Shown piece by piece: positions 7,524 to 38,099 of a DNA stretch of 64,000 nt; position 1 is the stretch's first letter; every line of letters starts with the position of its first letter. Below the pieces are notes generated by a model. The model was not told the origin of the DNA and did no database searches. It saw only the letters and a program-made list of their open reading frames with translations. The translations under genes and the position numbers were made by a program. This stretch comes from Shinella yambaruensis (lineage in GTDB: Bacteria; Pseudomonadota; Alphaproteobacteria; Rhizobiales; Rhizobiaceae), in assembly GCF_022899355.1 (NCBI RefSeq), contig NZ_JALJCK010000001.1, positions 348,346 through 412,345 on the forward strand. Reading direction: 5' to 3'.

Positions 7524-7542
7524 AGGGTACTGTCCTCATGGA

Positions 7543-7867: not shown

Positions 7868-7909
7868 TGTCTTGACTCCCTTTCGAACTTGTACCCCGAT
7901 GTAAGACGT

Positions 7910-9891: not shown

Positions 9892-10747
9892 GCCCGTCGC
9901 TCCCGTCCTCGTCGCCCTCGGGCTTCGGCCCGCGGCGCAGGTAGATCGGCTGGAAGGCGCCGTCCTGGCGCAGCTCCAGCCGCCCTTCCCGCACAAGTTC
10001 CAGCGTCGCCGCGAAGGCGCTGGCGATCGCCGTGGTGCGTTCCGCCGGGTCGCTCAGGTATCGCAGGATGAAACTGTCGAGCGCCGCCCAGTCGTCCTCG
10101 AAGCCGCCGATAAGCAGCGACAGGATCTCGCGCGCATCGGAGAGCGACCAGACATTGCGCTTCTCGATGGTGACGTGGGTGATCGCATGGCGCTGGCGCA
10201 GCGAAGAATAGGCGCTGAGCAGGTCGTAGAGCGAGGCCTCGAAGGACGAACGCCGCTCGGTCGGGATGTGCTCCGGCATACCGCGGGCAAAGACGTCGCG
10301 GCCGAGGCGATTGCGGTTGACAAGCCGCGTCGCCGCATCCCGCATCGCCTCCAGCCGCTTCAGGCGGAAGGCGAGGCTGGCCGCCATCTCCTCGCCGGAA
10401 GGGCCGTCGTCCTTCGCCTGCCTGGGAATGAGCAGGCGCGACTTGAGATAGGCGAGCCAGGCCGCCATGACGAGATAGTCGGCGGCAAGCTCGATGCGGA
10501 TCTTGCGCGCCCGCTCGATGAAGACGAGATATTGTTCGGCGAGCGCCAGCACGGAGATGCGGGTGAGGTCCACCTTCTGCGTGCGAGCGAGATGCAGGAG
10601 AAGGTCGAGCGGGCCCTCGAAGCCGGCAAGATCGACGACGAGGCTCTCCTCGGAAAGGCCCCGTGCCTCGGCGTCCTGCCACAGGTCGGCCATCGGCGCC
10701 TCTGCGCCGCGTCCCTTCTTCGGTGGCTTCGACCCCGTTCCCTGCAC
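9884..10747 (-). CDS. scpA: Segregation and condensation protein A (kleisin)
   Basis: Kleisin subunit that bridges SMC and ScpB. The N-terminal core FEGPLDLLLHLARTQKVDL is diagnostic, followed by the helical middle and a C-terminal winged helix (FAATLELVREGRLELRQ). A GTG at 10747 with AAGGAAAGGGG upstream gives 287 residues; a later ATG 18 codons in is a possible alternative. It follows nagZ after 59 bp and overlaps scpB, so nagZ-scpA-scpB form an operon. Confidence 0.92.
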   Translation of the reverse strand: MQGTGSKPPKKGRGAEAPMADLWQDAEARGLSEESLVVDLAGFEGPLDLLLHLARTQKVDLTRISVLALAEQYLVFIERARKIRIELAADYLVMAAWLAYLKSRLLIPRQAKDDGPSGEEMAASLAFRLKRLEAMRDAATRLVNRNRLGRDVFARGMPEHIPTERRSSFEASLYDLLSAYSSLRQRHAITHVTIEKRNVWSLSDAREILSLLIGGFEDDWAALDSFILRYLSDPAERTTAIASAFAATLELVREGRLELRQDGAFQPIYLRRGPKPEGDEDGSDGRG

Positions 10748-10806
10748 GTCGCCCCTTTCCTTGCCCCGTGTGCCTGCGCACCATGGGACACCATTTGCGG
10801 CGGCTG

Positions 10807-11826
10807 TCAGGCCACCGCGATCATGGCGTTGAATTCCTCGCGCAGCGCCGCCTCGTCCGCCCCGTCCGGCGTCGGGAAGCCCGCACGAACCGCATTCGCC
10901 CGCCGCAGGCTGTCGCCGGTGAGCGGCGGAACGTTCTCGGCCACCGCGATCATTTCCTCTATGATGCCATGGCAATGCAACACCATGTCGAGGCCGGCGG
11001 CAATGATTCCCCGGCTTCTTGCGGCAATATCGCCCTTCAGCGCGTTCATCGACACGTCGTCCGACATCAGCAGCCCGTCGAAGCCGATATGGCCGCGGAT
11101 GATCTCGCTCACCACCGTCGCCGAGGTCGTCGCTGGGTTGTCGGCATCGATGGCGGTGAAGACGATGTGGGCGGACATCGCCATCAGCTCGTCCTTCATG
11201 CGCCGGAAGGGCACGAAATCGCAGGCCTCAAGCTCGGCGCGGCTTGCGTGCACCACCGGCAGGTCATGGTGCGAATCGACCATGGTGCGGCCGTGGCCCG
11301 GCATGTGCTTCATGATCGGCAGCAGGCCGCCGGCCTTGAGGCCCTCGGCCGCGGCCTTGCCCATCACCGAGACGATCTCCGGTTCCTGCCCGTAGGCACG
11401 GTTGCCGATGACGTCGTGCACGCCCGGCACGGCAACGTCGAGCACCGGCAGGCAATCGACATTGATGCCGAGGCGCAGGAGATCGAAGGCGTGCAGGCGC
11501 GACATCAGCCAGGCAGCGCGCAGCCCCTTCTCCGCGTCGGCGCGGTAGATGGCGCCGAGCGCGGCGGCATTCGGATATTGCTGCACATGCGGCGGCCTGA
11601 TGCGCTGGACGCGGCCGCCCTCCTGGTCGATCAGGACCGGAACGTCCGCCCCGCCGCCGACGCAGTCACGCATCTCGGCGGTGAGGTCCGCCACCTGCGC
11701 CGGCTCGCCGATGTTGCGGCCGAACAGGATGAAGCCCCAGGGCCGCTCGCTGCGGAAGAAGGCTTTTTCGTCGGCGCTCAGGCTCAGGCCCTTGCAGCCC
11801 GAAAGGAAGGATTTCGATTCGCTCAT
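10807..11826 (-). CDS. nagZ: Beta-N-acetylhexosaminidase NagZ (GH3)
   Basis: Glycoside hydrolase family 3 enzyme that removes N-acetylglucosamine from muropeptides during peptidoglycan recycling in the cytoplasm. The catalytic-loop motif KHMPGHG followed by the SHHDLP segment is typical of NagZ, and LIDQEGGRVQRI near residue 65 is the substrate-site motif. MSDDVSM contains the nucleophile Asp. The length of 339 residues is normal. It sits between the SPOR-domain gene and scpA, as in other Rhizobiales, and probably shares a promoter region with scpAB. Confidence 0.95.
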   Translation of the reverse strand: MSESKSFLSGCKGLSLSADEKAFFRSERPWGFILFGRNIGEPAQVADLTAEMRDCVGGGADVPVLIDQEGGRVQRIRPPHVQQYPNAAALGAIYRADAEKGLRAAWLMSRLHAFDLLRLGINVDCLPVLDVAVPGVHDVIGNRAYGQEPEIVSVMGKAAAEGLKAGGLLPIMKHMPGHGRTMVDSHHDLPVVHASRAELEACDFVPFRRMKDELMAMSAHIVFTAIDADNPATTSATVVSEIIRGHIGFDGLLMSDDVSMNALKGDIAARSRGIIAAGLDMVLHCHGIIEEMIAVAENVPPLTGDSLRRANAVRAGFPTPDGADEAALREEFNAMIAVA

Positions 11827-11906
11827 GTCCGCAATCTTAAAGGTTCGGTAGGGAAAACGAAGCGCGCGCCCTGCCCGCCACTCGGCGACGGCCCGCGGGA
11901 ATCGAA

Positions 11907-11931
11907 GAGGCGCGGACCATGCCCGCGCCTC
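11907..11931 (-). terminator. Hairpin after the SPOR-domain gene
   Basis: GAGGCGCGG and CCGCGCCTC form a 9 bp stem just downstream of the stop at 11952. A short TTC follows on the minus strand, so the T-run is weak. Confidence 0.5.
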
Positions 11932-11951
11932 CCCAGGAATTCGGCGTCACC

Positions 11952-14900
11952 TCAGCGGGTGACGAGGCAGCTTCCGCCGGCGCTCTTGTAGCGGTTGCAC
12001 AGCGCATTGGCCTCTTCGCGCGAACCGGCCGGGATGCGGACGCGGAAGTAGGTGCCCTTGTTCGGAATCTCCGCCTTCCTGATGTCCACGCCGCGCCCGC
12101 CGATGACGCTGGAGAACTTGGAGGAGAGCGAATTGTAGCTCTTCTGGGCCTCCGCCTCCGAGGGCAGCGAGGCGATCTGGATGACGTAGCTGCCCGGCGC
12201 GACGGCTGCGACCTGCGTTTGTTCCGCCGTCTGCGTCTGCGTCGGCGTGGCCTCGGCAGTCCGCGTGCCCGAGACGTTGCCGTTCTCGGTCACGGTGCCG
12301 ACCACGGTAACCGGCTGGTCGATCGGGCGGGTGCCCGGGATCGGCGCATTGCCGTCCGTCGAACCGGTCGTGGCGCCGATCGTCGTCGTCTTCACGGTGC
12401 GCACCGGCGCGGTGTCGTCGACTTCGGCATCGGCGACCTCCGCAAGCGCGGAGCGCGGCTGGCCTTCGCCGGCCGCCTGCTCGGCGCGCAGCGAAGCATC
12501 GGCGTCGACCGTCGCGGCGGCTTCGCCCGAGGCGCTGCCGGTGGTCGCGGTCGCCTTGGCATCGAGCCCGGCAATGTCCGTCGCAGGTTCGCCGACCGCC
12601 TCCTCGCGGGCGACGAGCGTGCCGTCCGGCTTGACGATCATCGTCTTGACCTTGCGCGGCGAGACGAGCGGCTTGCTGCCGCCTTCGGCCGTTGCGGTTT
12701 CCGGCTCGTCGACGCCCGGCAGCACGCGGTTTTCGTTTTCCGCCGCGATGACCGCCTCGACGCCGTCTTCCGGACCATCGAACGGCAGGGTCTCCGGCGT
12801 CAGCGTGCGCTGGACGACGTCGACCGGCTCTTCCGTCGAGGTGACGAGCTGTTCCTGCTGCGGCGTTGCGGCCGTGTCGCCGGCAACGCGGTCATAGACC
12901 GCCTTGTCCTGGTTCGGCACGGTCTTGCCGCCCTTTTCCTCCGGCACGATCTTGACCGGCTCCTTGTCGGCCAGGATCACCCGCGGCTCGCCGGAGCCGG
13001 CCGCACCGCCGGAGAAGGCGCTCCAGGCGTAGACGCCACCGCCGCCGACCATCAGCAGGGCCGCGATGGAGGCGGCGATCAGCAGGCCGCGGCGCGGGCG
13101 AGACTGCTCCTCGTCGTAGCCGTCGCCGGCATAGAGCGTGTTGGCCTGGCCCGGATCGACGGGGATCGCCATGCGCTCCGGCTGGTTCAGCGAGCGGCGG
13201 AAATCCTCCTCGAGGGCACGTTCGAAATCGTCGACATCGTTGATCTGCGCCATCGGCTGGCTGATGGCCGCGGCAACCGCACCGCCGGCAACGCCGGCCG
13301 ACAGGTCTTCGCCGCGCGCCTTGGCGGCGGGCTCGTTGAAGAGCTGCGCCATTTCCGCGTCGATGTCGAAATCGTAGTCGGGCTGGTAGGCCGGCGGCTT
13401 TTCCTTCTCGATGACGGGAAGCTGCGGGACGTCCAGCTCGGTGACCGGCGAGACACCTTCGTCGGTATCGGCGATCATCGTCGGGTCGAAGGGCAGCGCG
13501 CCATCGGCCGTCTCGGCCACCACCGGCTGCGGCGCGGTATAGGTGGAAACGGGAACGGCGACGGCCGGCTCGCGGCGCACGGGCGTCTGCACCTCGACGG
13601 GCGTGGCGGCCTCCATCCGGGTTTCCGGCGCCTTGTCCTCCTGCCGCACCGGCTCCTCGTCGAGCGAGAAATCGGAAAGGTCGAGGTCGATGTCGGAAAG
13701 GTCGAATTCCAGGTTCTCCAAATCGAGCTCAGCGCCCGAGGCAGCCGGGGTCGCCATGGCGGCGGGCTCCTGGCGGGTCTCGGCGACCGGCGTGCGATAG
13801 GTGTCCGCCACCGGCTCCTGCGCGGGCTCGAAGACCGGTTCATGCGCGGTTTCGGCAACCGGCGTCCGGGCCGTCTCGACGGCCGGCTGGCGGTGCGCGA
13901 CGGGCGTCGCACGGCCGAAGATCGCGGAAACGTTGGCCATGCCGCTGCGCGGCGTCGCGCCGACGGCGGCAAGCGTGGCGGCCGTCAGGGGAGAGCGACT
14001 TTCCGGCACGGGATAGCGCTCGACCTCCGCCAGCAGGGCGTCCTGGTCGTAGGTGCAGCCGGGCTCGACCGATTCCACCCGGTAGTCGGGCTGCGCGTCG
14101 TGCACGGGCTCGGCATCCTGCCATTGCGTCTCGGCCTCGGCCACGGCGCGGGCACGGTCTTCCCGCGTCTCGAACGGCATTTCGGCGACGAACTGCGGCT
14201 CGTCGCGGGCATAGGCCGGCTCGGCATGGAAGGGTTCGGCGGCCGCATCGGACATCCAGGCCTGGAGAACCGGCTCGCCGCCGGCCTGCGTGGTCGCGGC
14301 CGCTTCGGCATTGTGTCCCTCGGAGAGCAGGTCGTCGGCGAAACCATCGCCGATCGAAAGCTCCAGCTCGCGCTCCAGGTCGAGGCCGATCTCGTCGATC
14401 GGGTTCTCCTCGGGAGCGAGCGGCTGCAGGCCGAGCACGACGGGCTGGCGCTCGTCGGCGCTGGCGGCAACGGGGGTCTCGGCAACGGGTTCGCTGCGCA
14501 CGGGCGGCTCGAAGCGCGGCTCCAGCCGGTCGACGAACTGGTGGCCGGCATGCGCCGCCGGCTCGATCGCGACGGACGGCACGTCGTGCACGGCCGCCTC
14601 GAGCTCGTCGGCAAGCAGCAGGGCCGGATCGAAATCCAGCTCAGGCTCGACGTCGGCCGGCGTCGCCGCGGCGACGATCTCTTCCGCGAAGGGCGGCTCG
14701 ACCGCATGTTCCTCGAAGGCGGGCTCGCGGCCGGCATCGCTCGCGACGGCATCCGGCTGCTGCGCCTCCGCCGGGCGCTCTTCCTCGATGGACGGCTCGA
14801 CGCCGAAGAACTGCTCCTCGAAGGCGGGCTCACGGTGGGCGGCATCGACCGGCGCAGCGTCGAGGAGGACGTCATGCTCGGCCGCTTCGGCGAAGGCTTC

Positions 14901-15431
14901 CTCCACGAAAGGCGGCTCGACGGCGTGCTCCTCGAAGGCAGGCTCGTGGCCGGCATCGCTCGCAACGGCATCCGGCTGCTGCGCCTCCGCCGGGCGCTCT
15001 TCCTCGACAGACGGCTCGACGCCGAAGAACTGCTCCTCGAAGGAAGGCTCGCGATGGCCGGCATCGACCGGCGCGGCATCGCGCGTCGGCACCGTGTCGA
15101 GGATGGCGTCGCGCGCCTCGGCGGCAGGCTCCGGCATATCGAACACAGGCTCGACATGGCGCGGCGCCGCCCGCTCGGCAACGACCGGCTCGACGCTCTC
15201 GCGGCGCGGCGTGTCATATTGCTCGAAGGCCCGCATCAACTCGTCCTCAAGGGCGAGAACAGGATTGTCCAATCGCGGCACAACCCGGGCGGGCTCGGAG
15301 AAGGACCTGCCGGCGCCCGGAAGCGGACGCGGCTCGTAGTCGACGAGACGGGCAAGCTCGGCCAACGGGTCGTCGTCCGCCAGGAGATCCGTGTCAGCGG
15401 TTCCGCTTCGCGCGAAGTTCTTGTCTGCCAT
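11952..15431 (-). CDS. Large SPOR-domain membrane protein
   Basis: Predicted division-associated envelope protein of about 1159 residues. The first 750 residues are acidic, repetitive and Glu/Pro/Ala-rich, likely disordered and cytoplasmic. One transmembrane helix lies near residue 780 (GLLIAASIAALLMVGGGG). A periplasmic linker is followed by a C-terminal SPOR domain over about the last 80 residues (YVIQIASLPSEAEAQKS...), the fold that binds denuded septal peptidoglycan. A 73-residue tandem repeat is visible in the acidic half. The ATG at 15431 is preferred to the TTG-type start at 15443. Upstream is argS and downstream nagZ, the conserved rhizobial order. No enzymatic domain is seen. Confidence 0.88.
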   Translation of the reverse strand: MADKNFARSGTADTDLLADDDPLAELARLVDYEPRPLPGAGRSFSEPARVVPRLDNPVLALEDELMRAFEQYDTPRRESVEPVVAERAAPRHVEPVFDMPEPAAEARDAILDTVPTRDAAPVDAGHREPSFEEQFFGVEPSVEEERPAEAQQPDAVASDAGHEPAFEEHAVEPPFVEEAFAEAAEHDVLLDAAPVDAAHREPAFEEQFFGVEPSIEEERPAEAQQPDAVASDAGREPAFEEHAVEPPFAEEIVAAATPADVEPELDFDPALLLADELEAAVHDVPSVAIEPAAHAGHQFVDRLEPRFEPPVRSEPVAETPVAASADERQPVVLGLQPLAPEENPIDEIGLDLERELELSIGDGFADDLLSEGHNAEAAATTQAGGEPVLQAWMSDAAAEPFHAEPAYARDEPQFVAEMPFETREDRARAVAEAETQWQDAEPVHDAQPDYRVESVEPGCTYDQDALLAEVERYPVPESRSPLTAATLAAVGATPRSGMANVSAIFGRATPVAHRQPAVETARTPVAETAHEPVFEPAQEPVADTYRTPVAETRQEPAAMATPAASGAELDLENLEFDLSDIDLDLSDFSLDEEPVRQEDKAPETRMEAATPVEVQTPVRREPAVAVPVSTYTAPQPVVAETADGALPFDPTMIADTDEGVSPVTELDVPQLPVIEKEKPPAYQPDYDFDIDAEMAQLFNEPAAKARGEDLSAGVAGGAVAAAISQPMAQINDVDDFERALEEDFRRSLNQPERMAIPVDPGQANTLYAGDGYDEEQSRPRRGLLIAASIAALLMVGGGGVYAWSAFSGGAAGSGEPRVILADKEPVKIVPEEKGGKTVPNQDKAVYDRVAGDTAATPQQEQLVTSTEEPVDVVQRTLTPETLPFDGPEDGVEAVIAAENENRVLPGVDEPETATAEGGSKPLVSPRKVKTMIVKPDGTLVAREEAVGEPATDIAGLDAKATATTGSASGEAAATVDADASLRAEQAAGEGQPRSALAEVADAEVDDTAPVRTVKTTTIGATTGSTDGNAPIPGTRPIDQPVTVVGTVTENGNVSGTRTAEATPTQTQTAEQTQVAAVAPGSYVIQIASLPSEAEAQKSYNSLSSKFSSVIGGRGVDIRKAEIPNKGTYFRVRIPAGSREEANALCNRYKSAGGSCLVTR
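14680..15082 (-). repeat. 219 bp in-frame tandem duplication inside the SPOR-domain gene
   Basis: About 187 bp at 14680-14866 and 14896-15082 match closely with a 219 bp (73-codon) offset. Both encode the blocks FEEQFFGVEPS, EEERPAEAQQPDAVASDAG and EPAFEEHAVEPPF. Nucleotide differences are few, which points to a recent duplication. Confidence 0.85.
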
Positions 15432-15494
15432 ACTGCTTCCCACTCACAAGCTACAAAAACGCGTTTGCCAGCTTATTGTGGGCAAATGGTGACG

Positions 15495-17255
15495 TTACCG
15501 CATTTCGTTCGGCGCAGCCGTGCCTGTAATGGACAGGCCCGACTTAAGAACAGAGGCGACAGCGTGCACCAGCCCAAGTCTGGCGATACTCAATTCTCTA
15601 TTTTTATCGTTAACAAACCGTAATTCCGGCTGCTCTTTGCCTTTGTTCCAGTGAGCATGGAATGCGCTGGCAAGATCATAGAGGTAAAACGCGATGCGAT
15701 GCGGCTCGTGCGCCAGTGCAGCCCCCTCGATCACACGCGGATATTCTGCCAGCTTCGCCAGAAGCTGCAACTCGCTCGGATCGGCGATGTTGCCGTCGAT
15801 CGCGGCAGCCAGATCGAGCGCGGCGACATCGAGGTCCGGAAAGGCCTCGGCCGCCTGGCGGAACACCGACATGCAGCGCGCATGGGCATACTGCACGTAG
15901 AAGACCGGATTGTCCTTGGACTGCTCCGTCACCTTGGCGAAGTCGAAGTCGAGCGGCTCGCTGTTCTTGCGGTAGAGCATCATGAAGCGCACCGGATCAC
16001 GGCCGACCTCGTCGACCACGTCGCGGAGCGTGACGAAGTCGCCGGAGCGCTTCGACATCTTCACGGGCTCGCCGTTGCGGAACAGCTTGACCAGCTGGCA
16101 GAGCAGCACCGTCAGCTTCGACTTCCCCTCGGAAACGGCCCGTGCGACCGCCTCCAGGCGCTTGACGTAGCCGCCGTGGTCGGCGCCGAGCACATAGATC
16201 ATCTCGTCGAAGCCGCGGTCGAACTTGTCCTTGAAGTAGGCAACGTCGGCGGCGAAATAGGTATAGGAGCCGTCCGACTTGATCAGCGGGCGGTCGATGT
16301 CGTCGCCGACCTCCGTCGAGCGGAAGAGCGTCTGCTCGCGGTCTTCCCAGTCTTCCGGCAGCTGGCCCTTCGGCGGCGGCAGCACGCCCTTGTAGACATG
16401 GCCCTTGAAGGTCAGATCGTTGATCGCGGTGCGGATCGGCGCGCCGTTGCCGGCATGCAGCGAGCGCTCGGAGAAGAAGACGTCGTGCGTGACGTTGAGG
16501 GCGGCCAGATCCTCGCGGATCATCGCCATCATCGCGTCGATCGTCTTTTCCTTGACGATCGGCATCCACTGGTGTTCCGGCATGGCGCGCAGCGTCGTGC
16601 CGAATTCCTCGGCCAGCGCCTCGCCGACCGGCACCAGATAGTCCCCCGGATAGAGACCCGACGGGATGTCACCGATCGTCTCGCCGAGCGCCTCGCGGTA
16701 GCGCAGGAAGGCCGAGCGGGCGAGCACGTCGATCTGCGAGCCCGCGTCGTTGATGTAGTATTCCTTGGTCACGGCAAAGCCGGCAAAGGCGAGCAGGTTG
16801 GCCAGCGCATCGCCGACGACGGCGCCGCGGCAATGGCCGACATGCATCGGGCCGGTCGGGTTGGCCGAGACATATTCCACATTGACCTTGCGCCCGGTGC
16901 CGAGGGCACCCCGGCCGTAGCCGGTCCCGGCCCGGACGATCGCGGCGAGCAGCTTCTGCCAGTAGGCGACGGAGAGGCGGACATTGATGAAACCGGGGCC
17001 GGCGACGCCGACATCCGCCACTTCCGGATCCTTCTTCAGCTCGGCGACGATGAGATCGGCAAGCGCCCGCGGATTGAGGCCGAGAGGCTTCGCCAGCACC
17101 ATCGCGGCATTGGTCGCGACGTCGCCATGGCTCGCATCGCGCGGCGGCTCGACGCTGATACGGCCGAAGTCGAGGTCGGCACGCTTTTCACGGACGATCT
17201 CAAGTCCTTCGAGTACGTTTTTGATTCTGCTGTCGAAGTCTGTAAAAAGGTTCAT
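15495..17255 (-). CDS. argS: Arginine--tRNA ligase
   Basis: Class I synthetase charging tRNA-Arg. The HIGH motif appears as HVGH (about residue 135, [15 protein letters not shown]) and the KMSKS loop as KMSKRSG near residue 398. The N-terminal additional domain that contacts the tRNA D-loop covers residues 1-100, and the C-terminal DALR anticodon-binding domain ends the protein. The ATG at 17255 (MNLFTDF) matches the family start; an ATG three codons upstream is also open. About 586 residues, normal. It lies between dgt and the SPOR-domain gene, all in one direction. Confidence 0.97.
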
Positions 17256-17322
17256 CTCATCCATCCACGCGCAGCAACCCGTTCCGGGCCATTCCTGCGA
17301 AGAAGTTCAGGTGGGCGGCTGA

Positions 17323-18543
17323 CTATCGCAATTCGGGGGTATGGTCAAACAGCCGGCGGTGCGTGTTGATCGCGTAATTGTCGGTCATGCCGGCAAGATA
17401 ATCGCCGACATGGCGGGCGCGGGCCGATTCCGGCATGGTCGCGATGCGGTCCACCCAATAGTGCCCCTGCATGAGCTGCGGGTCGTCCATATAGGCGTGA
17501 TAGAGGTCCGTGAGGATCGAGGCGGCGTTCGCCCGCACCCGCATCACCTCCGGATGCCGGTAGATGCGCGAGAACAGCAGCCTCTTGATCTCCTTGTCGG
17601 TGACCGCCATCTCCGCGGAGAAGGTCGCAAGGCAGCGGCGCGCCCTGCGCACGTCCTCGGCGCTTTCCGGCCGCTCGTCGCCGATCGCCTGCTGGGCATA
17701 GCCGATCACGTCCTCCACCATGGCGGTGATCTGGCGGCGCATGATCTCGTGGGTGAAGCGCGACGCTTCGAGGCCCGGATAGCGCTGGCGCACGTCGTGC
17801 ATCAGCCTGGCGAGGAACGGGACCTCCTCCAGCATCTCGAAGGTGAGATAGCCCGAGCGCAGGCCGTCGTCGATATCGTGGGTGTTGTAGGCGATGTCGT
17901 CGGCGATCGCCGCCACCTGCGCCTCCATGCTCGCGAAACTGCCGAGTTCCAGGTCGTGCATGGCGCAGTAGTCGAGGATCGGCCGCGGCACCTCCTCGCC
18001 ATGGGTGCACTCGCCGGTCGGCCCGATCAGCGGCCCATTGTGCTTGACGAGCCCTTCGAGGCTTTCCCAGGTGAGGTTCAGCCCGTCGAACTCGGCATAG
18101 CGCCGCTCCAGTTTGGTGACGATGCGCAGAGACTGGGCGTTGTGGTCGAAGCCGCCGAAGGGTTTCAGCACCTCGTGCAGCGCGTCCTCGCCGGTATGGC
18201 CGAAGGGCGTGTGGCCGAAATCGTGCACCAGCGCCACGCCCTCGGCGAGATCCTCGTCGAGCTTCAGGGCGCGGGCGAGCGCGCGGGCGATCTGCGCCAC
18301 CTCGATCGTGTGGGTCAGCCGCGTGCGATAGTGGTCGCCGTCGGCGGCGATGAAGACCTGCGTCTTGTGCTTGAGGCGCCGGAAGGCGGTGGTATGCACG
18401 ATGCGGTCGCGGTCGCGCTGGAAGTCCGAACGCGTCGGGCTTTCCGCTTCCGGATGGAGCCGTCCACGGGTCGCCCAGGGGTCGGAGGCATAGATGGCGC
18501 GTTGCCCCGCGCCAAAACCCAGCGCATGTCTGTCGAACGTCAT
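17323..18543 (-). CDS. dgt: Deoxyguanosinetriphosphate triphosphohydrolase-like protein
   Basis: HD-domain phosphohydrolase that removes triphosphate from dNTPs and helps set nucleotide pools. The metal site is visible in order: [11 protein letters not shown] (His), [11 protein letters not shown] (His-Asp) and [10 protein letters not shown] (Asp). The N-terminal stretch [20 protein letters not shown] is typical of the proteobacterial dGTPase type 2 family. The length of 406 residues is normal. It is divergent from erpA with 218 bp between and lies 67 bp before argS on the same strand. Confidence 0.93.
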
Positions 18544-31319: not shown

Positions 31320-31393
31320 GGCCTCGTGGCGGAGTGGTTACGCAGAGGACTGCAAATCCTTGCACCCGAGTTCGATTCTCGGCGAGGCCTCCA
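31320..31393 (+). tRNA. tRNA-Cys (GCA)
   Basis: Full cloverleaf of 74 nt including an encoded CCA. The acceptor arms GGCCTCG and CGAGGCC pair fully, the T-loop reads GTTCGATTC, and the anticodon GCA lies at 31352-31354 in the loop CTGCAAA. The discriminator base is T, as expected for tRNA-Cys. Confidence 0.96.
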
Positions 31394-31604: not shown

Positions 31605-31847
31605 TCAGCCCAACCAGAAAGTTCGGTCCCACACAGGCGTTGGCCCGGCAACCTCGTAGATGATCACGCGCACACGCCTTGCCACATCCGGTGGCACGCG
31701 TCCGTGGATGACGATGGCCTGCGCCTCGAAGACGAGTTCGATCTTGTGACCGGAGCAAAGCTCGTCATAGGCGATCGCGGCTCGGATAGAGGCGCGCAGG
31801 CCGTATTCTTGCGCGCCGAAGCCGCCGCCGAGAGATGCCTGAAACAT
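31605..31847 (-). CDS. Small BON-like protein
   Basis: Eighty residues, no signal peptide. The pattern IRAAIAYDELC, then KIELVFEAQAIVIHGRVP, then ARRVRVIIYEVAG resembles a BON domain (phospholipid- or stress-associated fold), though I am not certain. A strong GGGAGG Shine-Dalgarno lies five bases before the ATG at 31847. An EcfG-type promoter sits at 31880-31904, 33 bp upstream of the start. The 211 bp between the tRNA and the stop hold nothing recognisable. Homology needs a profile search to settle. Confidence 0.6.
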   Translation of the reverse strand: MFQASLGGGFGAQEYGLRASIRAAIAYDELCSGHKIELVFEAQAIVIHGRVPPDVARRVRVIIYEVAGPTPVWDRTFWLG

Positions 31848-31879
31848 CTCACCCTCCCTTGTTTTCGTGATTTATTGAA

Positions 31880-31904
31880 AACAAAGATGAGGTCGCGATG
31901 TTCC
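31880..31904 (-). promoter_or_regulatory. Candidate EcfG (RpoE2) promoter for the BON-like gene
   Basis: On the minus strand, GGAAC (31904-31900), 16 bases, then TGTT (31883-31880). This fits the general-stress consensus GGAAC-N16/17-NNTT and stands 33 bp before the start codon. Confidence 0.55.
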
Positions 31905-32014
31905 ACGGCGGAGGCGTCATCCGGCTTTTCCGTGAAAGACTGCTCCGTCCGTTCAACGCCTGAGACCTTCAAAGGCGTGTTTTTCGGATGGTGGACGAGT
32001 TTCCGGGCAACGAT

Positions 32015-32039
32015 GGAACAAAGCGCGCGCGTCCGGATT
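32015..32039 (+). promoter_or_regulatory. Candidate EcfG (RpoE2) promoter for the 39-residue membrane protein
   Basis: GGAAC, 16 bases, then GATT, ending 33 bp before the ATG at 32073. It matches the GGAAC-N18-TT form of the RpoE2 consensus. Confidence 0.5.
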
Positions 32040-32072
32040 GACGCGCCAAAGTTTCATCGTGGAGGAACTGCA

Positions 32073-32192
32073 ATGTTGGAAAGAGCGAAGGAGCGGAAGG
32101 AAACCGACAAGACGCTGATGGCGGCGGCTGTGTTGATCTTCGCGGGGCTGACGGCACTCAGCGTTCCGCCGTTCCTGCTCTTTGGGACATAA
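32073..32192 (+). CDS. 39-residue single-span membrane microprotein
   Basis: Starts MLERAKERKETDK, a charged amphipathic N-terminus, followed by one hydrophobic helix (LMAAAVLIFAGLTALSVPPF) and a very short tail. A textbook GGAGGAA Shine-Dalgarno lies five to six bases before the ATG, and an EcfG-type promoter lies further upstream. I do not recognise a family. Coding status rests on the ribosome site, promoter and membrane helix, which agree well. Confidence 0.6.
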   Translation: MLERAKERKETDKTLMAAAVLIFAGLTALSVPPFLLFGT

Positions 32193-32293
32193 CGAGGCCG
32201 GCGACGAAAAAATGTCCCGGGCTTCCGGAACATCGTGCAGGGCCGCCGGTTACGGATGCGCCTCCGCGATGGTCCCCTGGCGGAGTCTTGGGT

Positions 32294-32330
32294 GGGGCGG
32301 GCCTTCTCGATTCACCGGAAGGCCCGCCCC
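32294..32330 (+). terminator. Strong hairpin after the 39-residue gene
   Basis: GGGGCGGGCCTTC and GAAGGCCCGCCCC form a perfect 13 bp stem with an 11 nt loop. A short T-run (CCTTTAT) follows on the plus strand. It lies between convergent small genes and may serve both. Confidence 0.75.
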
Positions 32331-32367
32331 TGCCTTTATGCGAAATCGCCTTCCCAGGCATCGACGC

Positions 32368-32535
32368 CTATACGCCGCCCATGGATGACGCCAAAACCAG
32401 ACCGAGCCCGTAGAGACTTGCGACCACAGCGCCCGCTACCAGCAGGGCAAACAGTATCCGACGGCTTGCGCGCTCCTCATGCAATCGATTTGGCTTTGGG
32501 TCTTCAAAGGATTCGACCTGATTTTCATACCGCAT
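32368..32535 (-). CDS. 55-residue single-span membrane protein
   Basis: N-terminal 25 residues are charged (MRYENQVESFEDPKPNRLHEE), then one hydrophobic helix (ILFALLVAGAVVASLYGLGL) near the C-terminus. The inner ATG at 32535 is preferred because GAGG sits eight bases upstream; the outer start at 32574 would add 13 residues and has no clear ribosome site. Family unknown. It is convergent with the 39-residue membrane gene. Confidence 0.55.
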   Translation of the reverse strand: MRYENQVESFEDPKPNRLHEERASRRILFALLVAGAVVASLYGLGLVLASSMGGV

Positions 32536-32595
32536 CGCGTGACCTCGTTCCGACCCGTCAATGGTGACCGACATCTGACGCCATCCCGCCCGGAT

Positions 32596-32620
32596 GGAAC
32601 CCCAGGATGCGCCGTACGTT
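32596..32620 (+). promoter_or_regulatory. EcfG (RpoE2) promoter, perfect consensus
   Basis: GGAAC at 32596-32600, 16 bases, then CGTT at 32617-32620: an exact match to the EcfG consensus, 37 bp before the ATG at 32658. Confidence 0.75.
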
Positions 32621-32657
32621 TTTCAAACTTGGCACAAACAAGTTTAAGGAGAACATC

Positions 32658-32861
32658 ATGGACGACAACCTCTTTAACCGGCTGAAAACGGACAGTGCCG
32701 CGTTGCGGAAGCGAGCGCTGGAGACCAGCCAAACTGGCCAAGAGCGCGACATCGCCCTGTTGATGCAAGGCCTGGCGACTGCGCTGGATGCGATCGGCGC
32801 GCTGGCGGCGACCACGGGTCGGCTGGATGGACCGCCAGGTCTTGGGAAAAGCGGCGACTAG
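32658..32861 (+). CDS. 67-residue helical protein of unknown function
   Basis: Begins MDDNLFNRLKTDSAALRKRA and continues as an amphipathic helical protein without signal or membrane segments; the last ten residues are Gly-rich. A perfect AAGGAG Shine-Dalgarno lies seven bases before the ATG at 32658, which decides against the longer frame from 32607. A perfect EcfG promoter precedes it. It is convergent with the ferritin-like gene. I do not recognise a family. Confidence 0.65.
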   Translation: MDDNLFNRLKTDSAALRKRALETSQTGQERDIALLMQGLATALDAIGALAATTGRLDGPPGLGKSGD

Positions 32862-32867
32862 ATGAAC

Positions 32868-32894
32868 GAGAGCCGGGTATCAAGCCCGGCTCTC
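32868..32894. terminator. Hairpin between two convergent small genes
   Basis: GAGAGCCGGG and CCCGGCTCTC form a perfect 10 bp stem just after the stop at 32861. No T-run is present on the plus strand; it may act for either gene. Confidence 0.6.
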
Positions 32895-32943
32895 GATGTC
32901 TGGTGGATGACGTTCGATGTGTCGCAGCGTCCCGTCGTGCGGT

Positions 32944-33438
32944 TCAGGCCGCCTTCTTGGCGGTCGTCGTCTTGTTGATGGCGGTCACGGCGAGGTTCGT
33001 CAGCTTGTTGTTGGTCGCTTTTTCCTGGTCGAGGATTTCGCTCAGGAGCTTGTGCGCCTCGTCATGACCGAGATCCTTCGCCCATTCGCGAAGCGAGCCG
33101 TAGCGCGCGATCTCGTAGTGCTCGACAGCCTGGCATGCGGCAAGCAGGCCGGCATCAAGGGCAGTGCCTTGTGCTTCTTCCATAAGGCCGTCGGCTTCCT
33201 TGATCAGCCCTTCGATGGCATCGCACTTCTCGCCCGACGCCTTCTTGCCGATCGACTTGAAGACCTGCTCGAGCTTCTTGATCTGGTCCTTGGTTTCCGA
33301 GAGGTGCTCCTCGGCCGCCTTCTTCAGCTCGGCACTCTTGGCGGCCTTCGCGACCTTGGGCAGGGCCTTCGTGATCGCGTTCTCTGCGTAATAGACGTCC
33401 TGAAGGGTGTGCTCAAAGATATCAGCCAGCGATTTCAT
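32944..33438 (-). CDS. YciE/YciF-type ferritin-like protein (DUF892)
   Basis: Four-helix-bundle protein of the DUF892 family, 164 residues, linked in other bacteria to osmotic and general stress. The N-terminal LADIFEHTLQDVYYAENAITKALPKV and the repeated Glu/His positions (AAEEHLSETKDQI, AVEHYEIARYGSLREWA) are typical of the family and would supply di-iron ligands. The ATG at 33438 has an ideal AAAGGAG site upstream. An EcfG-type promoter lies 37 bp further up. The tail is Lys/Ala-rich. Confidence 0.9.
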   Translation of the reverse strand: MKSLADIFEHTLQDVYYAENAITKALPKVAKAAKSAELKKAAEEHLSETKDQIKKLEQVFKSIGKKASGEKCDAIEGLIKEADGLMEEAQGTALDAGLLAACQAVEHYEIARYGSLREWAKDLGHDEAHKLLSEILDQEKATNNKLTNLAVTAINKTTTAKKAA

Positions 33439-33474
33439 GATGTCTCTCCTTTGCAAGATGAAATGCGGTAGAGA

Positions 33475-33499
33475 AATCGTGAAGGCGGCGAAACGTTCC
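33475..33499 (-). promoter_or_regulatory. Candidate EcfG (RpoE2) promoter for the DUF892 gene
   Basis: On the minus strand, GGAAC (33499-33495), 16 bases, then GATT (33478-33475), 36 bp before the ATG at 33438. The rest of the 33439-33770 spacer holds no gene. Confidence 0.55.
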
Positions 33500-33616
33500 G
33501 AAGAGATTGGTTGTCGCTATGTCCGTCGCGCGCTGTTGGCGCGCTGCCTAGTGGCGCCCCTGACGCCAAGTTTCCAGCCTTACGGCTCTGGACACGGAAT
33601 GGAATAAAAGGCGACT

Positions 33617-33641
33617 GGAACGACCTCTCTCACGGCGTATT
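33617..33641 (+). promoter_or_regulatory. Weak EcfG-like promoter upstream of the small lipoprotein gene
   Basis: GGAAC, 16 bases, TATT. It fits the loose consensus but lies 129 bp from the next start codon (33771), so it is less convincing than the others in this cluster. Confidence 0.3.
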
Positions 33642-33770
33642 CTCCTATCGCGCCGAATGCAAGGTTCGGCGTGGCAAGTCAGAACGAAGCAATAGCTGCG
33701 CAACGAATCCATTGAACTCTGGATCTCAAACGTTATCGTCTGTCTCGTTTGTTACCGAAAGGAGGATTAT

Positions 33771-34100
33771 ATGCGGCTGTTGTCGATTGTAGCCCTTGCG
33801 TCTGCGTCCCTGTTCATCACGGGGTGTGTCACGGAGACCAGTTATAACCGTGCTCAGGAAATTGTCAGGGGCAGTCCCGCCGCCAAGCGTGATGGCGTCA
33901 ACAAGTGCTATGCTGGCGCTCGCCGCGCGTCACCGGCGCGCAAGGCGGAAATGGCGAAGATCATGAATGTCAGCCCCCGCCGCGACGTCGCCCGGATCTA
34001 TTGCCAGCGCGCATTCAACGGTATCGCCAGCGGCCGCATCACCTACAGCGATTTCAGAACAAAGAGCCCGAGGTTCATTCGCGTGATACAGGGGCGGTAA
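33771..34100 (+). CDS. Small lipoprotein of unknown function
   Basis: 109 residues. A lipoprotein signal peptide ends at FITGC (Cys19). The mature part is basic and contains two Cys (NKCYAG and IYCQRAF) that could form a disulfide. GGAGGA lies five bases before the ATG. A second lipoprotein gene of unrelated sequence follows at 34485. The product is probably anchored in the outer membrane or periplasmic face. No family recognised. Confidence 0.7.
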   Translation: MRLLSIVALASASLFITGCVTETSYNRAQEIVRGSPAAKRDGVNKCYAGARRASPARKAEMAKIMNVSPRRDVARIYCQRAFNGIASGRITYSDFRTKSPRFIRVIQGR

Positions 34101-34484
34101 AATCTGCTTGGGCCGGCGTCGTGGCGATTGGGCAGCAACTCCCGAGCCATCCGCCGGCCCTCTCCTTTCGTGGTCGTCGCGCCGTCGTCGATTATGTCGC
34201 TCATCGGCACTCCGCATCGCATGGCCTTCGCCTGACGGCCAAGATGGATGCTGTTGAATTCGTCAACCAGAGATGATCGGGGAATGAGGTCTGAATTTCC
34301 CGCGAGGAGGCGGGCGACAACCTTCATCGTGCCCGGCTTCTTCGCCTTCGCAGATGTCGAGGCACTGAATACACTCCTGAGCAACAGGTGCGACCGGATC
34401 GCCACCATCATGTCGCCCCCGTGCTGCGGGACCCTCAAGGCCGCCGACATACGGCCGATGCGAGCGAGATAAGGAGAGATTTCG
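34101..34484. other. 384 bp between two lipoprotein genes, no clear gene
   Basis: Several short frames exist on both strands but none has a Shine-Dalgarno, a signal sequence or a recognisable motif. No hairpin terminator was seen after 34100. It could be a decayed gene. Confidence 0.4.
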
Positions 34485-34763
34485 ATGCCCAGCCTCAAAA
34501 CCGTCGCGGCGATCGCCATTGCCTTTGCCCTGACCGGCTGCACGGCCGCGGCCGCCCTGGAACCGATCCCGGGGAGCATCATCTACAAGGGCCAGCCGCG
34601 CACGAAGCTGACGAAGGCGCCGATCGGCAGCACGTTCGACCACCGGTTCCGCGATCGGTTCGGCGATGAATATATGGAAGTCTACCGGATCGCGCCGGAT
34701 CGTTCCCTGGAACTGCTCTCCCGGCGCAGAATCGACATCGTCGAGTTCGGCTTGGGGCGGTAA
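34485..34763 (+). CDS. Small lipoprotein of unknown function
   Basis: 92 residues with a lipoprotein signal peptide ending at ALTGC (Cys19). The mature part (GSIIYKGQPRTKLTKAPIGS) and the segment YMEVYRIAPDRSLELLSRR look like short beta-strands. AAGGAG lies eight bases before the ATG. No EcfG-type promoter was found for it. Family unknown. Confidence 0.7.
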   Translation: MPSLKTVAAIAIAFALTGCTAAAALEPIPGSIIYKGQPRTKLTKAPIGSTFDHRFRDRFGDEYMEVYRIAPDRSLELLSRRRIDIVEFGLGR

Positions 34764-34971
34764 GCGGTTCAAGGCTCGCGAAAAGGCCGTGATGGATGGA
34801 CGAAGCCACCACAACCTGTCAGAAGCAGCGCGGGACGCGACTGCCGATAACGTTAGATCGGGGTCGGGCGACCGATTGACGTCACGTCGCTGCCGCGAGA
34901 CCACGCTGGCCGTCCCATATGCTCCTAGAGACCGCCGAAACGACTGACCGCCGCGATCCGGCGCCCTGCCC

Positions 34972-35448
34972 TCACCGCAGCAACAATGCCGTTCCGTAGA
35001 GCCCCAGGGCAAAAACCGTGTGCGAAACCAGATTGAGGAACCGCACCTGATTGGCATTGGGAAGCTTCGACGCCGCCACACCGATGCCGAGGCCGGGCTG
35101 GAGGAGGAACCAGCCGGCACCGACGGTGACGATGCCGAGAATCCAGGCCGGCAGGAAGGTCGGGGCGGCGAACCAGGCCTGCCCGACGAGCAGCGCCAGA
35201 ATCACGCCATAGAGAATGCCGACGGCGTAGTGGCCGACCCAGCCGAGCGCGAGCTCGGACGCATAGGGCTCAGCCCTGCTTATATCGTCATGAAAAACGG
35301 TGCCGTTCTTCAGGTGCCAGAACCAGCGGCCGACCGGCGCCCAGTTCGGCCGCGCCTGGCGGAAGACCTTCCAGAGGACAACCGCCCACAGGTCCATCAG
35401 CACGGTGGCGCCGATGCCGATCGCCACGCCCTTCAACAGCAATTCCAT
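34972..35448 (-). CDS. DUF2938-like inner-membrane protein
   Basis: 158 residues with four hydrophobic segments. The pattern GIGATVLMDLWAVVLWKVF, then WVGHYAVGILYG, then PNANQVRFLNLVSHTVFALGLY matches the DUF2938 family as I recall it. The ATG at 35448 follows GAGGGG by about four bases; the frame to 35511 is not needed. Function unknown. No stress-type promoter was seen upstream. Confidence 0.7.
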   Translation of the reverse strand: MELLLKGVAIGIGATVLMDLWAVVLWKVFRQARPNWAPVGRWFWHLKNGTVFHDDISRAEPYASELALGWVGHYAVGILYGVILALLVGQAWFAAPTFLPAWILGIVTVGAGWFLLQPGLGIGVAASKLPNANQVRFLNLVSHTVFALGLYGTALLLR

Positions 35449-35517
35449 ATGCGCCCCTCGCCCAAACCTTGCCTGCCCGGTTAGAGCAGGTCCGCATCGG
35501 CGATGCAACAAAGCCCT

Positions 35518-35802
35518 TCAGCGTGCATTGCGCCGCGCCTTGCGGGTGGCCCACCAAACGGCGAGGCGGCGGCGCTGGCGGCGGACGAAGGGAGAATCGT
35601 GCGAGAGCACCAGAAGGCCGAGCGGCACCATCCAGAATCCGAGCACCGGCAGGAAGCCGAGGAGGCCGCCGACGATGAGAAGGACGCCGATCGTGGTGCG
35701 AAGCCAGCGCGATTCCGGCAGTTTCATCCGAAAAGAGCCGATCACGATCTCCCGCGTGCGGGGGTCTATCCCGAAATGCATATTTGTTTTTCGCGTCGTC
35801 AT
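35518..35802 (-). CDS. Small membrane protein resembling the PGPGW family
   Basis: 94 residues. Two short hydrophobic segments (TIGVLLIVGGLLGFLPVLG and WMVPLGLLVLSHD) are followed by a strongly basic tail (RRQRRRLAVWWATRKARR). This is the architecture of the PGPGW putative transmembrane family, but the Pro-Gly-Pro motif itself is reduced to LPVLGFWMVP. An alternative start is the second Met (MHFGIDP). Function unknown. Confidence 0.65.
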   Translation of the reverse strand: MTTRKTNMHFGIDPRTREIVIGSFRMKLPESRWLRTTIGVLLIVGGLLGFLPVLGFWMVPLGLLVLSHDSPFVRRQRRRLAVWWATRKARRNAR

Positions 35803-35966
35803 CCGCCGTCCGTTTCACCCAAACGCCTGGTTTTCCAAGGCTCGTCCACCCCCCAGTTGGAGACTTCTCCACAATCAATCAAGTCTCGTGCATTTTTTTG
35901 TCAAAAAGCGCTTGGCAAATCGATCAGGCATTTGTATTACGCGCTCACTCCGCGGCGAGCGGATGA

Positions 35967-36041
35967 TCCCTGGTAGCTCAGCGGTAGAGCATTCGACTGT
36001 TAATCGACAGGTCGCCGGTTCGAATCCGGCCCGGGGAGCCA
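35967..36041 (+). tRNA. tRNA-Asn (GTT)
   Basis: 75 nt including encoded CCA. Acceptor TCCCTGG pairs with CCGGGGA (one G-T pair), D-arm TAGCTCAGCGGTAGAGCA, T-loop GGTTCGAATCC, and anticodon GTT at 35999-36001 in the loop CTGTTAA. Discriminator G, as in other tRNA-Asn. Confidence 0.96.
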
Positions 36042-36125
36042 GATTCTTGAAGGGCTGCGCTGGATAGCGCGGCCCTTCTGCTTTTCAGCCATCGACAGAT
36101 TTTCCGCTCCATGAAGCCGCATTGC

Positions 36126-36317
36126 CTAGCGCGGGCTGACCGGCGGGCGCTTCGTGTTCATCTGGAGTTCGTGGCGGCTGGCAAAGCGGCCGAAGAGCCG
36201 GAGCAGCTTGCGTTCCTCGGCCTTGTCCAGCCCATTCCTGCGGCAATGTTCGATGACGTCGAGGACATGGCGAGGCTGGCGCGGCGTGAACTGGCGATTG
36301 TCGATGTGATGCGTCAT
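36126..36317 (-). CDS. 63-residue basic protein of unknown function
   Basis: Starts MTHHIDNRQF and contains a helical stretch RHVLDVIEHCRRNGLDKAEERKLLRL (shown in part), ending in a Pro-rich tail. GGAGGAGG lies before the ATG at 36317, and a GGAAC-N17-CATT promoter lies 37 bp further upstream. No signal or membrane segment. It probably belongs to the same stress group as the neighbouring small gene. Family unknown. Confidence 0.55.
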   Translation of the reverse strand: MTHHIDNRQFTPRQPRHVLDVIEHCRRNGLDKAEERKLLRLFGRFASRHELQMNTKRPPVSPR

Positions 36318-36354
36318 CGGGGGCCTCCTCCGTTCGGAATTCGAACAAAGGAAG

Positions 36355-36380
36355 AATGCGCCGGGCCAAGCCTTTGTTCC
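36355..36380 (-). promoter_or_regulatory. Candidate EcfG (RpoE2) promoter
   Basis: On the minus strand, GGAAC (36380-36376), 17 bases, then CATT (36358-36355), 37 bp before the ATG at 36317. Confidence 0.45.
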
Positions 36381-36394
36381 CGGCACCCTTCGTG

Positions 36395-36604
36395 TCAGGC
36401 CACCATTCCGGCGCCGGACTGGCCGGCCTTGCGGGAGAGGCCGTAATCCCGGTCCGGAAAGGTGCGGCGGAAGGCCTGGCTGCGGTCGCGCGGCGGAGCC
36501 GTCCGGTCGGCAAGCGGCGTTCCGACCACACCATCCGCATAGGTGCCGGTTGCGATGTCGTCCTCGGGCATGGCCGGGTTCACCTGAAAAAGTCCGAAAA
36601 ACAT
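36395..36604 (-). CDS. 69-residue protein of unknown function
   Basis: Begins MFFGLFQVNPAMPEDDIATG and ends SGAGMVA. No signal peptide, membrane helix or known motif. GGAG lies about eight bases before the ATG at 36604, and a perfect EcfG promoter stands 24 bp upstream of the start. It lies 77 bp before the 63-residue gene on the same strand, so the two may be partly co-transcribed. Confidence 0.55.
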   Translation of the reverse strand: MFFGLFQVNPAMPEDDIATGTYADGVVGTPLADRTAPPRDRSQAFRRTFPDRDYGLSRKAGQSGAGMVA

Positions 36605-36628
36605 GATGCTGTCTCCAGTTTCCCTCCA

Positions 36629-36653
36629 AACGGCCGGGCGGGACTTGCGTTCC
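36629..36653 (-). promoter_or_regulatory. EcfG (RpoE2) promoter, perfect consensus
   Basis: On the minus strand, GGAAC (36653-36649), 16 bases, then CGTT (36632-36629), an exact consensus match 24 bp before the ATG at 36604. Confidence 0.7.
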
Positions 36654-36833
36654 CATCGACACGCCGGATAGACGCAAAATTAACCACGTTTGCTAACAGA
36701 TCGTTAAAACCCTTCCCTTTTTGCGATCCGCGACAGGCCCCTTCATGATCCGGTCTGTCATGATTCACGTCTTGGCGTTCGGCGCCATTGACGATAGCCT
36801 TCACCCAACGTCGGGTTGGCAGAGGGGCAATCG

Positions 36834-38099
36834 ATGACGACTGAAATGATTTCAGAAAAGGCATTTTCAGACCACGATACACTGACGGCCGCCAATTTTG
36901 CCGAACGCACGAAGCGCCTGCCGTTGCGCGCCAGGATGGTGCTGCGCGGCCTGCTGGGTCTGGAGGCCGGCGCGCTGGCGATGACCGTTCCCGGCGGGCA
37001 GACCTTCGTGATCCGCGGCAGGACACAAGGTCCCCGCGCCATCGTCCGGCTCAACAACTGGAACCTCGTGCACCGCGCCGTCAGCGCCGGCACGATCGGC
37101 GTCGCGGAAAGCTACGTGGACGGCGACTGGGAGAGCCCGGATGCCGGCGCCTTCCTCGAACTCTTCCTCGTCAACACGAATGTCGGCCGCAGCTACACCA
37201 ACGGCCCGCGCGGCCTCTTCCTCCTCGTGGAGAAGTTCCGTCACTGGCTGAACGCCAACACCCGCCGCGGCTCCAAGCGCAACATCTCGGCGCACTACGA
37301 TCTCGGCAACGAGTTCTATTCGCAGTGGCTCGACCCGACGATGACCTATTCCTCCGCGCTCTATTCGCGCGGGGCGAACGACCTCACCTCGGCCCAGGTC
37401 GCGAAATATCGCGCGCTCGCCGAGGCGACCGGCATCGGCCCGAACGATCATGTGCTGGAAATCGGCTGCGGCTGGGGCGGCTTTGCGGAATTCGCCGCCA
37501 GCGAGATCGGCTGCAAGGTGACGGGCCTGACGATCAGCCGCCAGCAGCTCGCCTTCGCGCGCGAGCGCATGGCGAAGGCCGGGCTTGCCGACCGGGTCGA
37601 GCTGAAATTCCAGGATTACCGCGACGAGACCGGCACCTACGACCGCATCGTCTCCATCGAAATGTTCGAGGCGGTCGGCGAACGCTACTGGCCGGCCTAT
37701 TTCGCAAAGCTCAGCGAATGCCTGAAGCCGGGCGGCCGGGCGGGCCTGCAGATCATCACCATCCTGCAGGAGGCCTATGCCGAATACCGGGCCAATCCGG
37801 ATTTCATCCAGAAATACGTCTTTCCCGGCGGCATGCTGCCGACCCGCGAGCATCTTGCCTCCCTCGGCAGGCAGGTCGGGCTCGCAACGGCCTCCGACAT
37901 CGGCTTCGGCCACGACTATGCCCGCACGCTCGCCGAATGGCGCCACCGCTTCTGGGCCGCCTGGGAGCGCATCGTTCCGCTCGGCTTCGACGAGCGCTTC
38001 CGCAAGCTCTGGGAGTTCTACTTCTATTATTGCGAGGCGGGTTTCCGGGCGCGCAACATCGACGTTCGCCAAGTGGTCTACACGCGGCCCCCCGCCTGA
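36834..38099 (+). CDS. cfa: Cyclopropane-fatty-acyl-phospholipid synthase
   Basis: SAM-dependent enzyme that converts cis double bonds of membrane phospholipid acyl chains to cyclopropane rings, typically in stationary phase or acid stress. SAM motif I is LEIGCGWGGFAEF (about residue 209). The family signatures SAHYDLGNEFYSQWLD and MTYSSALY precede it, and IEMFEAVGERYW follows. The active-site region YYCEAGFRARNID is near the C-terminus. The ATG at 36834 with GAGGGGC upstream gives 421 residues; a TTG six codons earlier is less likely. It has its own upstream region. Confidence 0.95.
   Translation: MTTEMISEKAFSDHDTLTAANFAERTKRLPLRARMVLRGLLGLEAGALAMTVPGGQTFVIRGRTQGPRAIVRLNNWNLVHRAVSAGTIGVAESYVDGDWESPDAGAFLELFLVNTNVGRSYTNGPRGLFLLVEKFRHWLNANTRRGSKRNISAHYDLGNEFYSQWLDPTMTYSSALYSRGANDLTSAQVAKYRALAEATGIGPNDHVLEIGCGWGGFAEFAASEIGCKVTGLTISRQQLAFARERMAKAGLADRVELKFQDYRDETGTYDRIVSIEMFEAVGERYWPAYFAKLSECLKPGGRAGLQIITILQEAYAEYRANPDFIQKYVFPGGMLPTREHLASLGRQVGLATASDIGFGHDYARTLAEWRHRFWAAWERIVPLGFDERFRKLWEFYFYYCEAGFRARNIDVRQVVYTRPPA

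Follow-up and report, generated by a model that had tools for sequence, protein, structure and literature searches.

What controls the row of small genes that lies between tRNA-Cys and cfa in Shinella yambaruensis? The window, a 64-kb stretch of DNA (C11:348346-412345 in a 6.87-Mb genome), holds these genes on both strands, with tRNA-Asn among them at 35967-36041. An earlier note on this DNA had proposed that six of them each stand behind a promoter of the EcfG/RpoE2 type. In this study, we found that EcfG control of the six genes is very likely. Judging from sequence, it is highly probable that they are six separately transcribed general-stress genes under PhyR-NepR-EcfG. The features are listed below with their positions in the window; the promoters are hits of a motif scan.

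31320-31393, + strand: tRNA-Cys (GCA), the left border, rearranged in two relatives
31605-31847, - strand: BON80, 80 residues, a single BON-fold protein without apparent signal peptide
31880-31904, - strand: putative EcfG-type promoter of BON80, GGAAC-N16-TGTT
32015-32039, + strand: putative EcfG-type promoter of TM39, GGAAC-N16-GATT
32073-32192, + strand: TM39, 39 residues, a single-span membrane protein as judged by sequence
32596-32620, + strand: putative EcfG-type promoter of HEL67, exact GGAAC-N16-CGTT
32658-32861, + strand: HEL67, 67 residues, helical by inspection
32944-33438, - strand: DUF892 protein, 164 residues (Pfam PF05974, 192.8 bits, cut-off 23.7)
33475-33499, - strand: putative EcfG-type promoter of the DUF892 gene, GGAAC-N16-GATT
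36126-36317, - strand: U63, 63 residues, of a family without a Pfam model
36355-36380, - strand: putative EcfG-type promoter of U63, GGAAC-N17-CATT
36395-36604, - strand: U69, 69 residues
36629-36653, - strand: putative EcfG-type promoter of U69, exact GGAAC-N16-CGTT
36834-38099, + strand: cfa-type cyclopropane synthase, the right border (Pfam CMAS, 270.6 bits)

The window was scanned on both strands with the regular expression GGAAC-N16/17-NNTT. This gave 15 sites, 8 of them within 31800-36750. The six sites of the earlier note were all located at its positions and on its strands. They all fit NRTT, and exact CGTT was seen in two of them, those at HEL67 and U69, as the note had said. The distance from the end of NNTT to the ATG was 32 nt for BON80, 33 for TM39, 37 for HEL67, 36 for DUF892, 37 for U63, and 24 for U69, in agreement with the claimed 24-37 nt. 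The claimed density above chance also stood. The stretch 31800-36750 holds 8 sites against 0.64 expected from the rest of the 778-kb contig C11 (Poisson P 4e-7), or 8 against 0.38 (P 7e-9) with the narrower ending N[AG]TT, and the runner-up 4.95-kb window of this contig has 4 sites. The comparison with the genomic background covered contigs C11, C30, and C29 (1.83 Mb, 27% of the genome), with eight permuted words as controls. Here too the six-gene stretch was the densest 4.95-kb spot, with 8 sites against 6 in the runner-up. Sites were counted as start-linked when a ribosome-binding site and an open start followed at 15-60 nt. There were 7 such sites in the stretch, one of them the doubtful site at 32227 described below, compared with 4 in the runner-up and a peak of 1 or 2 for the eight permuted words. 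Over the 1.83 Mb, 31% (44/143) of GGAAC-N16/17-N[AG]TT sites were start-linked, compared with 7-11% for the permuted words. Sigma-70-like sites were at chance level (1 found, 1.3 expected). The feature that distinguishes this stretch is the coupling of sites to gene starts.

For homologs in Shinella and in other genomes, the DNA ahead of each gene was gathered, giving 88 distinct upstream regions with the window's own six included; the loci compared carry L numbers. Left out were hits covering less than 75% of the query, identical upstream regions, homologs whose start was not found (TM39 in L252 and L174, U63 in L066, DUF892 in L150), and U63 in L115, which has too little upstream sequence and is the same place as L131. 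Of the 88 regions, 79 contained the motif, whereas 29 permuted pentamers averaged 1.4. The highest of these, CGGAA (16) and GAACG (11), are both one-base shifts of GGAAC. The motif was kept upstream of BON80 in 17/17 regions, TM39 in 8/8, HEL67 in 6/10, DUF892 in 7/9 (close orthologs 6/6, paralogs 1/3), U63 in 27/28, and U69 in 14/16, the window's own included. Among 89 GGAAC occurrences, NNTT peaked at spacers of 16 (66) and 17 (54), some being counted at both. The -35 and -10 columns were steadier than the spacer, clearly in BON80, U63, HEL67, and DUF892 and less so in TM39 and U69, in a comparison whose rows were chosen and anchored by the motif itself. HEL67, BON80, and TM39 also keep the site at places away from the tRNA-Cys/cfa locus.

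The conservation of the U63 site reached further. Homologs with 36-47% identity to the window's protein (L140, L141, L049, L047) keep the site, and it was found in 22 of the 25 homologs examined from 13 other genera, compared with 0.14 for permuted words. This set began as 27 loci, from which L361 and L330 (a HEL67 match) were dropped as their start was not found. One protein is shared by L357 and L358. L337 and L340 coincide with L140 and L141 of the 88-region set, which also seems to contain near-copies of L348, L353, and L354. Among S. meliloti homologs, one of three has the site, in strain Ak57 at 53 nt before the start. The Ak57 homolog (LZK74_30635; L367, CP090106.1) belongs to a series of small genes. 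Besides its own site, 6.2 kb there contain four more GGAAC-N16/17-NNTT sites, of which one is divergent to it and another falls within a gene. The record bears the label pSymB, although its length is 3.7 Mb.

We also searched this genome for the regulators and for other genes behind the motif. It has two nepR and two phyR genes. The extracytoplasmic function (ECF) sigma factor behind one nepR, in a nepR-ecfG pair on contig C12, matches Pfam sigma r2, r4, and PhyR_sigma2, and from these domains and its place behind nepR it is taken as EcfG. The motif lies 28 nt ahead of the nepR of this pair, in a site ending CATT like that of U63, and ahead of phyR in the divergent gap. It also precedes the genes for long catalase, Ku, CsbD, DUF1328, Cu/Zn superoxide dismutase, a transglycosylase-associated protein, a BON protein, and a DUF6894 protein. 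Two alpha-amylase-family genes (Pfam: Alpha-amylase only), whose products look to us like TreY and TreZ, are preceded by it as well. The marks of an EcfG/RpoE2 regulon that can be read from sequence are found here: a promoter motif at short distance, its conservation upstream of homologs, and EcfG, NepR, and PhyR encoded with the motif before nepR-ecfG and phyR. The EcfG/RpoE2-type reading of the six sites was supported, as the motif fits the consensus published for R. etli EcfG1 (GGAAC-N16-CGTT; PMC3892343), precedes known stress genes in this genome, and is kept upstream of most homologs.

Further groups of such sites were seen elsewhere in the genome. A second island lies in L245 (C30:106001-126000) at about 6500-17800, where genes each stand behind a GGAAC-N16/17-N[AG]TT site. 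Its members are a BON protein, DUF6894, U63 and DUF892 paralogs, an 87-residue gene, an exo/endonuclease-family gene, and Ku. The U63 and DUF892 paralogs adjoin (115.5-116.3 kb on C30), each with its own site. Near the second nepR-phyR pair, L247 (C29) has four EcfG-type sites within about 1 kb (6836-7992), which front CsbD, DUF1328, a 51-residue membrane protein, and a 111-residue protein.

Several points weigh against EcfG control of the six genes. Permuted words cluster too: with five words on contig C11, some 4.95-kb window elsewhere holds as many as 7 sites for CAAGG and 6 for GGCAA, so raw clustering alone is not decisive. The exact GGAAC-N16/17-CGTT occurs 108 times genome-wide, only slightly above the 90 of a reversed control, and a single site by motif alone is therefore weak evidence. 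The motif is missing in 9 of the 88 upstream regions: four of HEL67, two of DUF892 paralogs, two of U69 (L035, L036), and one of U63. In L117, HEL67 lies 14 nt behind an 81-residue gene with its own site; in L122 it lies behind a homologous gene, inside which the sole site falls; and no site was found within 700 nt in L116 and L121. The L117 arrangement, with HEL67 behind an 81-residue gene, belongs to another genome of the genus (L251 8469-8974). Because that gene carries the site, HEL67 can also sit in a stress operon. The site is also missing in 3 of the 25 U63 homologs from other genera (L350, L354, L359; the start of L354 is probably misplaced) and in the plasmid copies of S. meliloti GR4 and M162, and in 3 of 21 genomes of the genus U63 itself is without any match. 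The -10 of TM39 is GATT or AATT, not CGTT, a form shared among its orthologs. A -35 element with GGAAC also serves other ECF sigma factors.

The last two points bear on the explanation that survives best beside EcfG control, namely that the promoters are genuine but that some or all of their transcription depends on a different ECF sigma factor, either an EcfG paralog or another of the GGAAC type. Paralogous regulatory branches exist, since two nepR and two phyR genes are present, and the ATT that ends the -10 of TM39 orthologs is preceded by A or G. In R. etli, mutation of ecfG2 lowers 19 units, and just one of these has the EcfG1 motif (PMC3892343). The same sequence class stands ahead of nepR-ecfG and of classic targets in this genome, which argues against another sigma factor, and we regard this explanation as unlikely. 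A second explanation is that the conservation reflects close kinship of the upstream DNA and not selection on the promoter. Most of the 88 rows come from one genus, and the U69 upstream regions are alike over long stretches. However, in BON80, DUF892, HEL67, and U63, the spacer and flanks differ while the -35 and -10 stay, and neither the distant U63 homologs, including those of other genera, nor the sites that three of the families carry away from this locus fit with it. We consider kinship very improbable as the cause. Chance matches in intergenic DNA, for which the genome-wide CGTT count and the permuted word with 7 sites might speak, have next to no credibility against the narrow distance to starts, and this explanation is refuted for the six sites by the conservation in homologs and the start-linked excess.

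Chance is the best account of two other sites. The earlier note had listed a seventh, weaker site at 33617-33641 (+), and this one failed. As a promoter of the 109-residue gene at 33771 it was rejected: it ends 129 nt before the ATG and is absent in both orthologs read (L371 and L372; L373 and L374 were not located by the script). The site at 32227-32251, absent from the list of the note, has no credible gene behind it, and its GGAAC sits in a terminator-like hairpin. A small RNA running from this site to the hairpin at about 32290-32331 was considered. In seven relatives the 220 nt that follow TM39 showed no such site, one of these relatives having GGAAC without a -10, and Rfam at the gathering threshold matched two tRNAs only, so the small RNA was dropped. 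The hairpin (32290-32331) is very strong and G+C-rich (fold z -4.1) and lies between the convergent genes for TM39 and a 55-residue membrane protein; it is likely a terminator common to both. The 55-residue single-span protein (32371-32535, -) is encoded inside the cluster without an EcfG site, and no relatives of it were found among the loci compared. At BON80, an inverted repeat, GTTTTC-N10-GAAAAC (31861-31882, -), overlaps the -10 and the probable start of BON80 and is kept in most of the 17 homologs. It is a possible operator or leader hairpin.

EcfG control of the six genes would operate as follows. Stress would activate PhyR, and PhyR would bind NepR and so free EcfG. EcfG would then bring RNA polymerase to the six promoters by recognising GGAAC-N16/17-NRTT. 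From each promoter a short transcript would arise, with a leader of probably about 15-30 nt, for one small protein. The predicted products are a cytosolic BON-fold protein, a single-span membrane peptide, the helical 67-residue protein, the DUF892 protein, U63, and U69. The weakest step is their joint role. Relatives of the BON and DUF892 proteins, and not TM39, HEL67, U63, or U69, suggest that they plausibly protect the envelope and the redox/iron balance, beside the lipid-modifying cfa.

All six genes look coding from their substitution pattern. The rate of nonsynonymous differences (pN) was below that of synonymous ones (pS) in 82/82 comparisons over the six genes, among them 16/16 for BON80, 7/7 for TM39, 9/9 for HEL67, and 15/15 for U69. 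The proteins had been called mostly undescribed, and five of the six, all but DUF892, had no match above cut-off in Pfam or NCBIfam, where for U63 Pfam was searched with 28 members and NCBIfam with the window's protein only. Seven proteins searched with PADLOC were without a match at E<=0.01. The window's BON80 scored 15 bits against Pfam PF04972, below the cut-off of 27. Within its family, 10 of 17 members match that model at E<=0.1 (best 7e-8). The BON80 model has the order alpha-beta-beta-alpha-beta (predicted local distance difference test score, pLDDT, 84.9), its four best PDB fold matches were BonA, OsmY, DolP, and DolP (E 8e-4 to 0.011), and a profile match to OsmY had E 0.004. The U63 model is mainly helical and less sure (pLDDT 77.8; predicted template modelling score 0.54), and the fold search found no relatives (best E 1.0). 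None of 28 U63 members matched DUF3606 (Pfam PF12244) at E<=0.1, and DUF3606 had no match in the window's genome. The hhalign probability between the U63 family and a DUF3606 set of two sequences was 68% over 29 columns, which is weak.

The spread of the families differed. Within Rhizobiaceae, the window's family, U63 was found in 45/297 genomes and 16/109 genera, HEL67 in 5/297 genomes of 3 genera (two matches partial, inside long frames), and TM39 in 5/297 genomes of 2 genera (with one of the matches incomplete and lying in a long frame); in these searches at most 20-25 candidates per genome were scored, and 5 genomes of the window's genus were included. For BON80, 12 of 61 relatives gave a match, each a member of this genus. 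As far as these samples go, HEL67, TM39, and BON80 thus seem nearly confined to Shinella.

The note had placed a local stress island between tRNA-Cys and cfa. The sites, regulators, and conservation support such an island; comparison of synteny showed that it is not one conserved unit. The locus consists of a U63-U69-cfa core beside a strain-variable segment that holds the other four genes. U63, U69, and cfa stand together in all seven named Shinella records examined. The segment at 31.45-34.44 kb (BON80, TM39, HEL67, DUF892, and the 109-residue gene) has a G+C content of about 58-62%, compared with a window mean of 65%, and is absent at this place in the nearest named relative, Shinella sp. 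SUS2 (L033). In SUS2 only the 3' part of tRNA-Cys is left (5555-5631), and in S. sumterensis (L036, 6424-6530) only its 5' half, inverted, within a 107-base match of 100% identity. As tRNA-Cys is cut in both, the locus is a site of rearrangement. Another of the families lies within about 4 kb in five of eight HEL67-centred regions (L248, L249, L251, L252, L253) and in one of ten further BON80-centred regions (L264). We tentatively propose, as a possibility on the doubtful side, that small lineage-restricted genes in Shinella move and recombine as cassettes in which every gene brings its own EcfG promoter, and that they accumulate at hot spots, the tRNA-Cys/tRNA-Asn/cfa locus being one. In this way new genes would be wired at once into the general stress response, with U63 as an undescribed, near-constant EcfG target across the family.

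At the right border, the cfa protein has its best match in Shinella sp. SUS2 (96%), with 84-90% in six further Shinella records. No GGAAC-N16/17-NNTT site was found ahead of cfa in the scan of the window. The gap that separates U69 from cfa contains, ahead of the U69 -35, a strongly conserved block (36664-36694, AGCAAACATGGTTAATTTTGCGTCTATCCGG-like), which is perhaps the cfa promoter or a regulator site.

A literature search found nothing that joins EcfG with Shinella or DUF892 with EcfG, and by title, supplements not being covered, no EcfG stress-gene island nor such gene clusters. What is new here is a set of probable members of a known regulon type at unusual local density, together with one widespread protein family without a Pfam model. 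Alphaproteobacterial general-stress regulons hold many small proteins of unknown role, and this locus adds six with sequence-level evidence of EcfG control. The U63 family stands out in being widespread in Rhizobiaceae and mostly EcfG-linked. One way in which lineage-specific genes may come under a stress regulon is suggested by gene combinations that recur in reshuffled form.

The DUF892 family is stress-linked and ferritin-like. Compared by sequence alone, the window's 164-residue protein resembles this YciF-like family through its strong Pfam match. BON80 resembles OsmY, DolP, and BonA in the order of its model and its best fold matches, and differs from them in being a single domain, without apparent signal peptide and below the Pfam cut-off. 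The likeness of U63 to DUF3606 is a weak profile similarity that no U63 member repeats against the Pfam model, and serves as a lead. The closest comparison is with the EcfG/RpoE2 regulons. Among the S. melonis EcfG targets, -10 elements ending CATT and AATT are listed, some promoters lie 24-30 nt from the start, Ku is a target, and GGAAC-N17-20-GTT is stated as the consensus (PMC6599016). Overexpression of rpoE2 in S. meliloti raised 202 genes, of which 150 were without predicted function (PMC3616915). The six genes share with these regulons the GGAAC-N16-CGTT class of promoter and, at U63, the CATT ending, and this genome also has Ku behind the motif; many targets of unknown function are common to both. 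They differ in that 4.8 kb suffice here for six target promoters, a density unmatched in the 1.83 Mb compared, and that five of the six products have no family model above cut-off.

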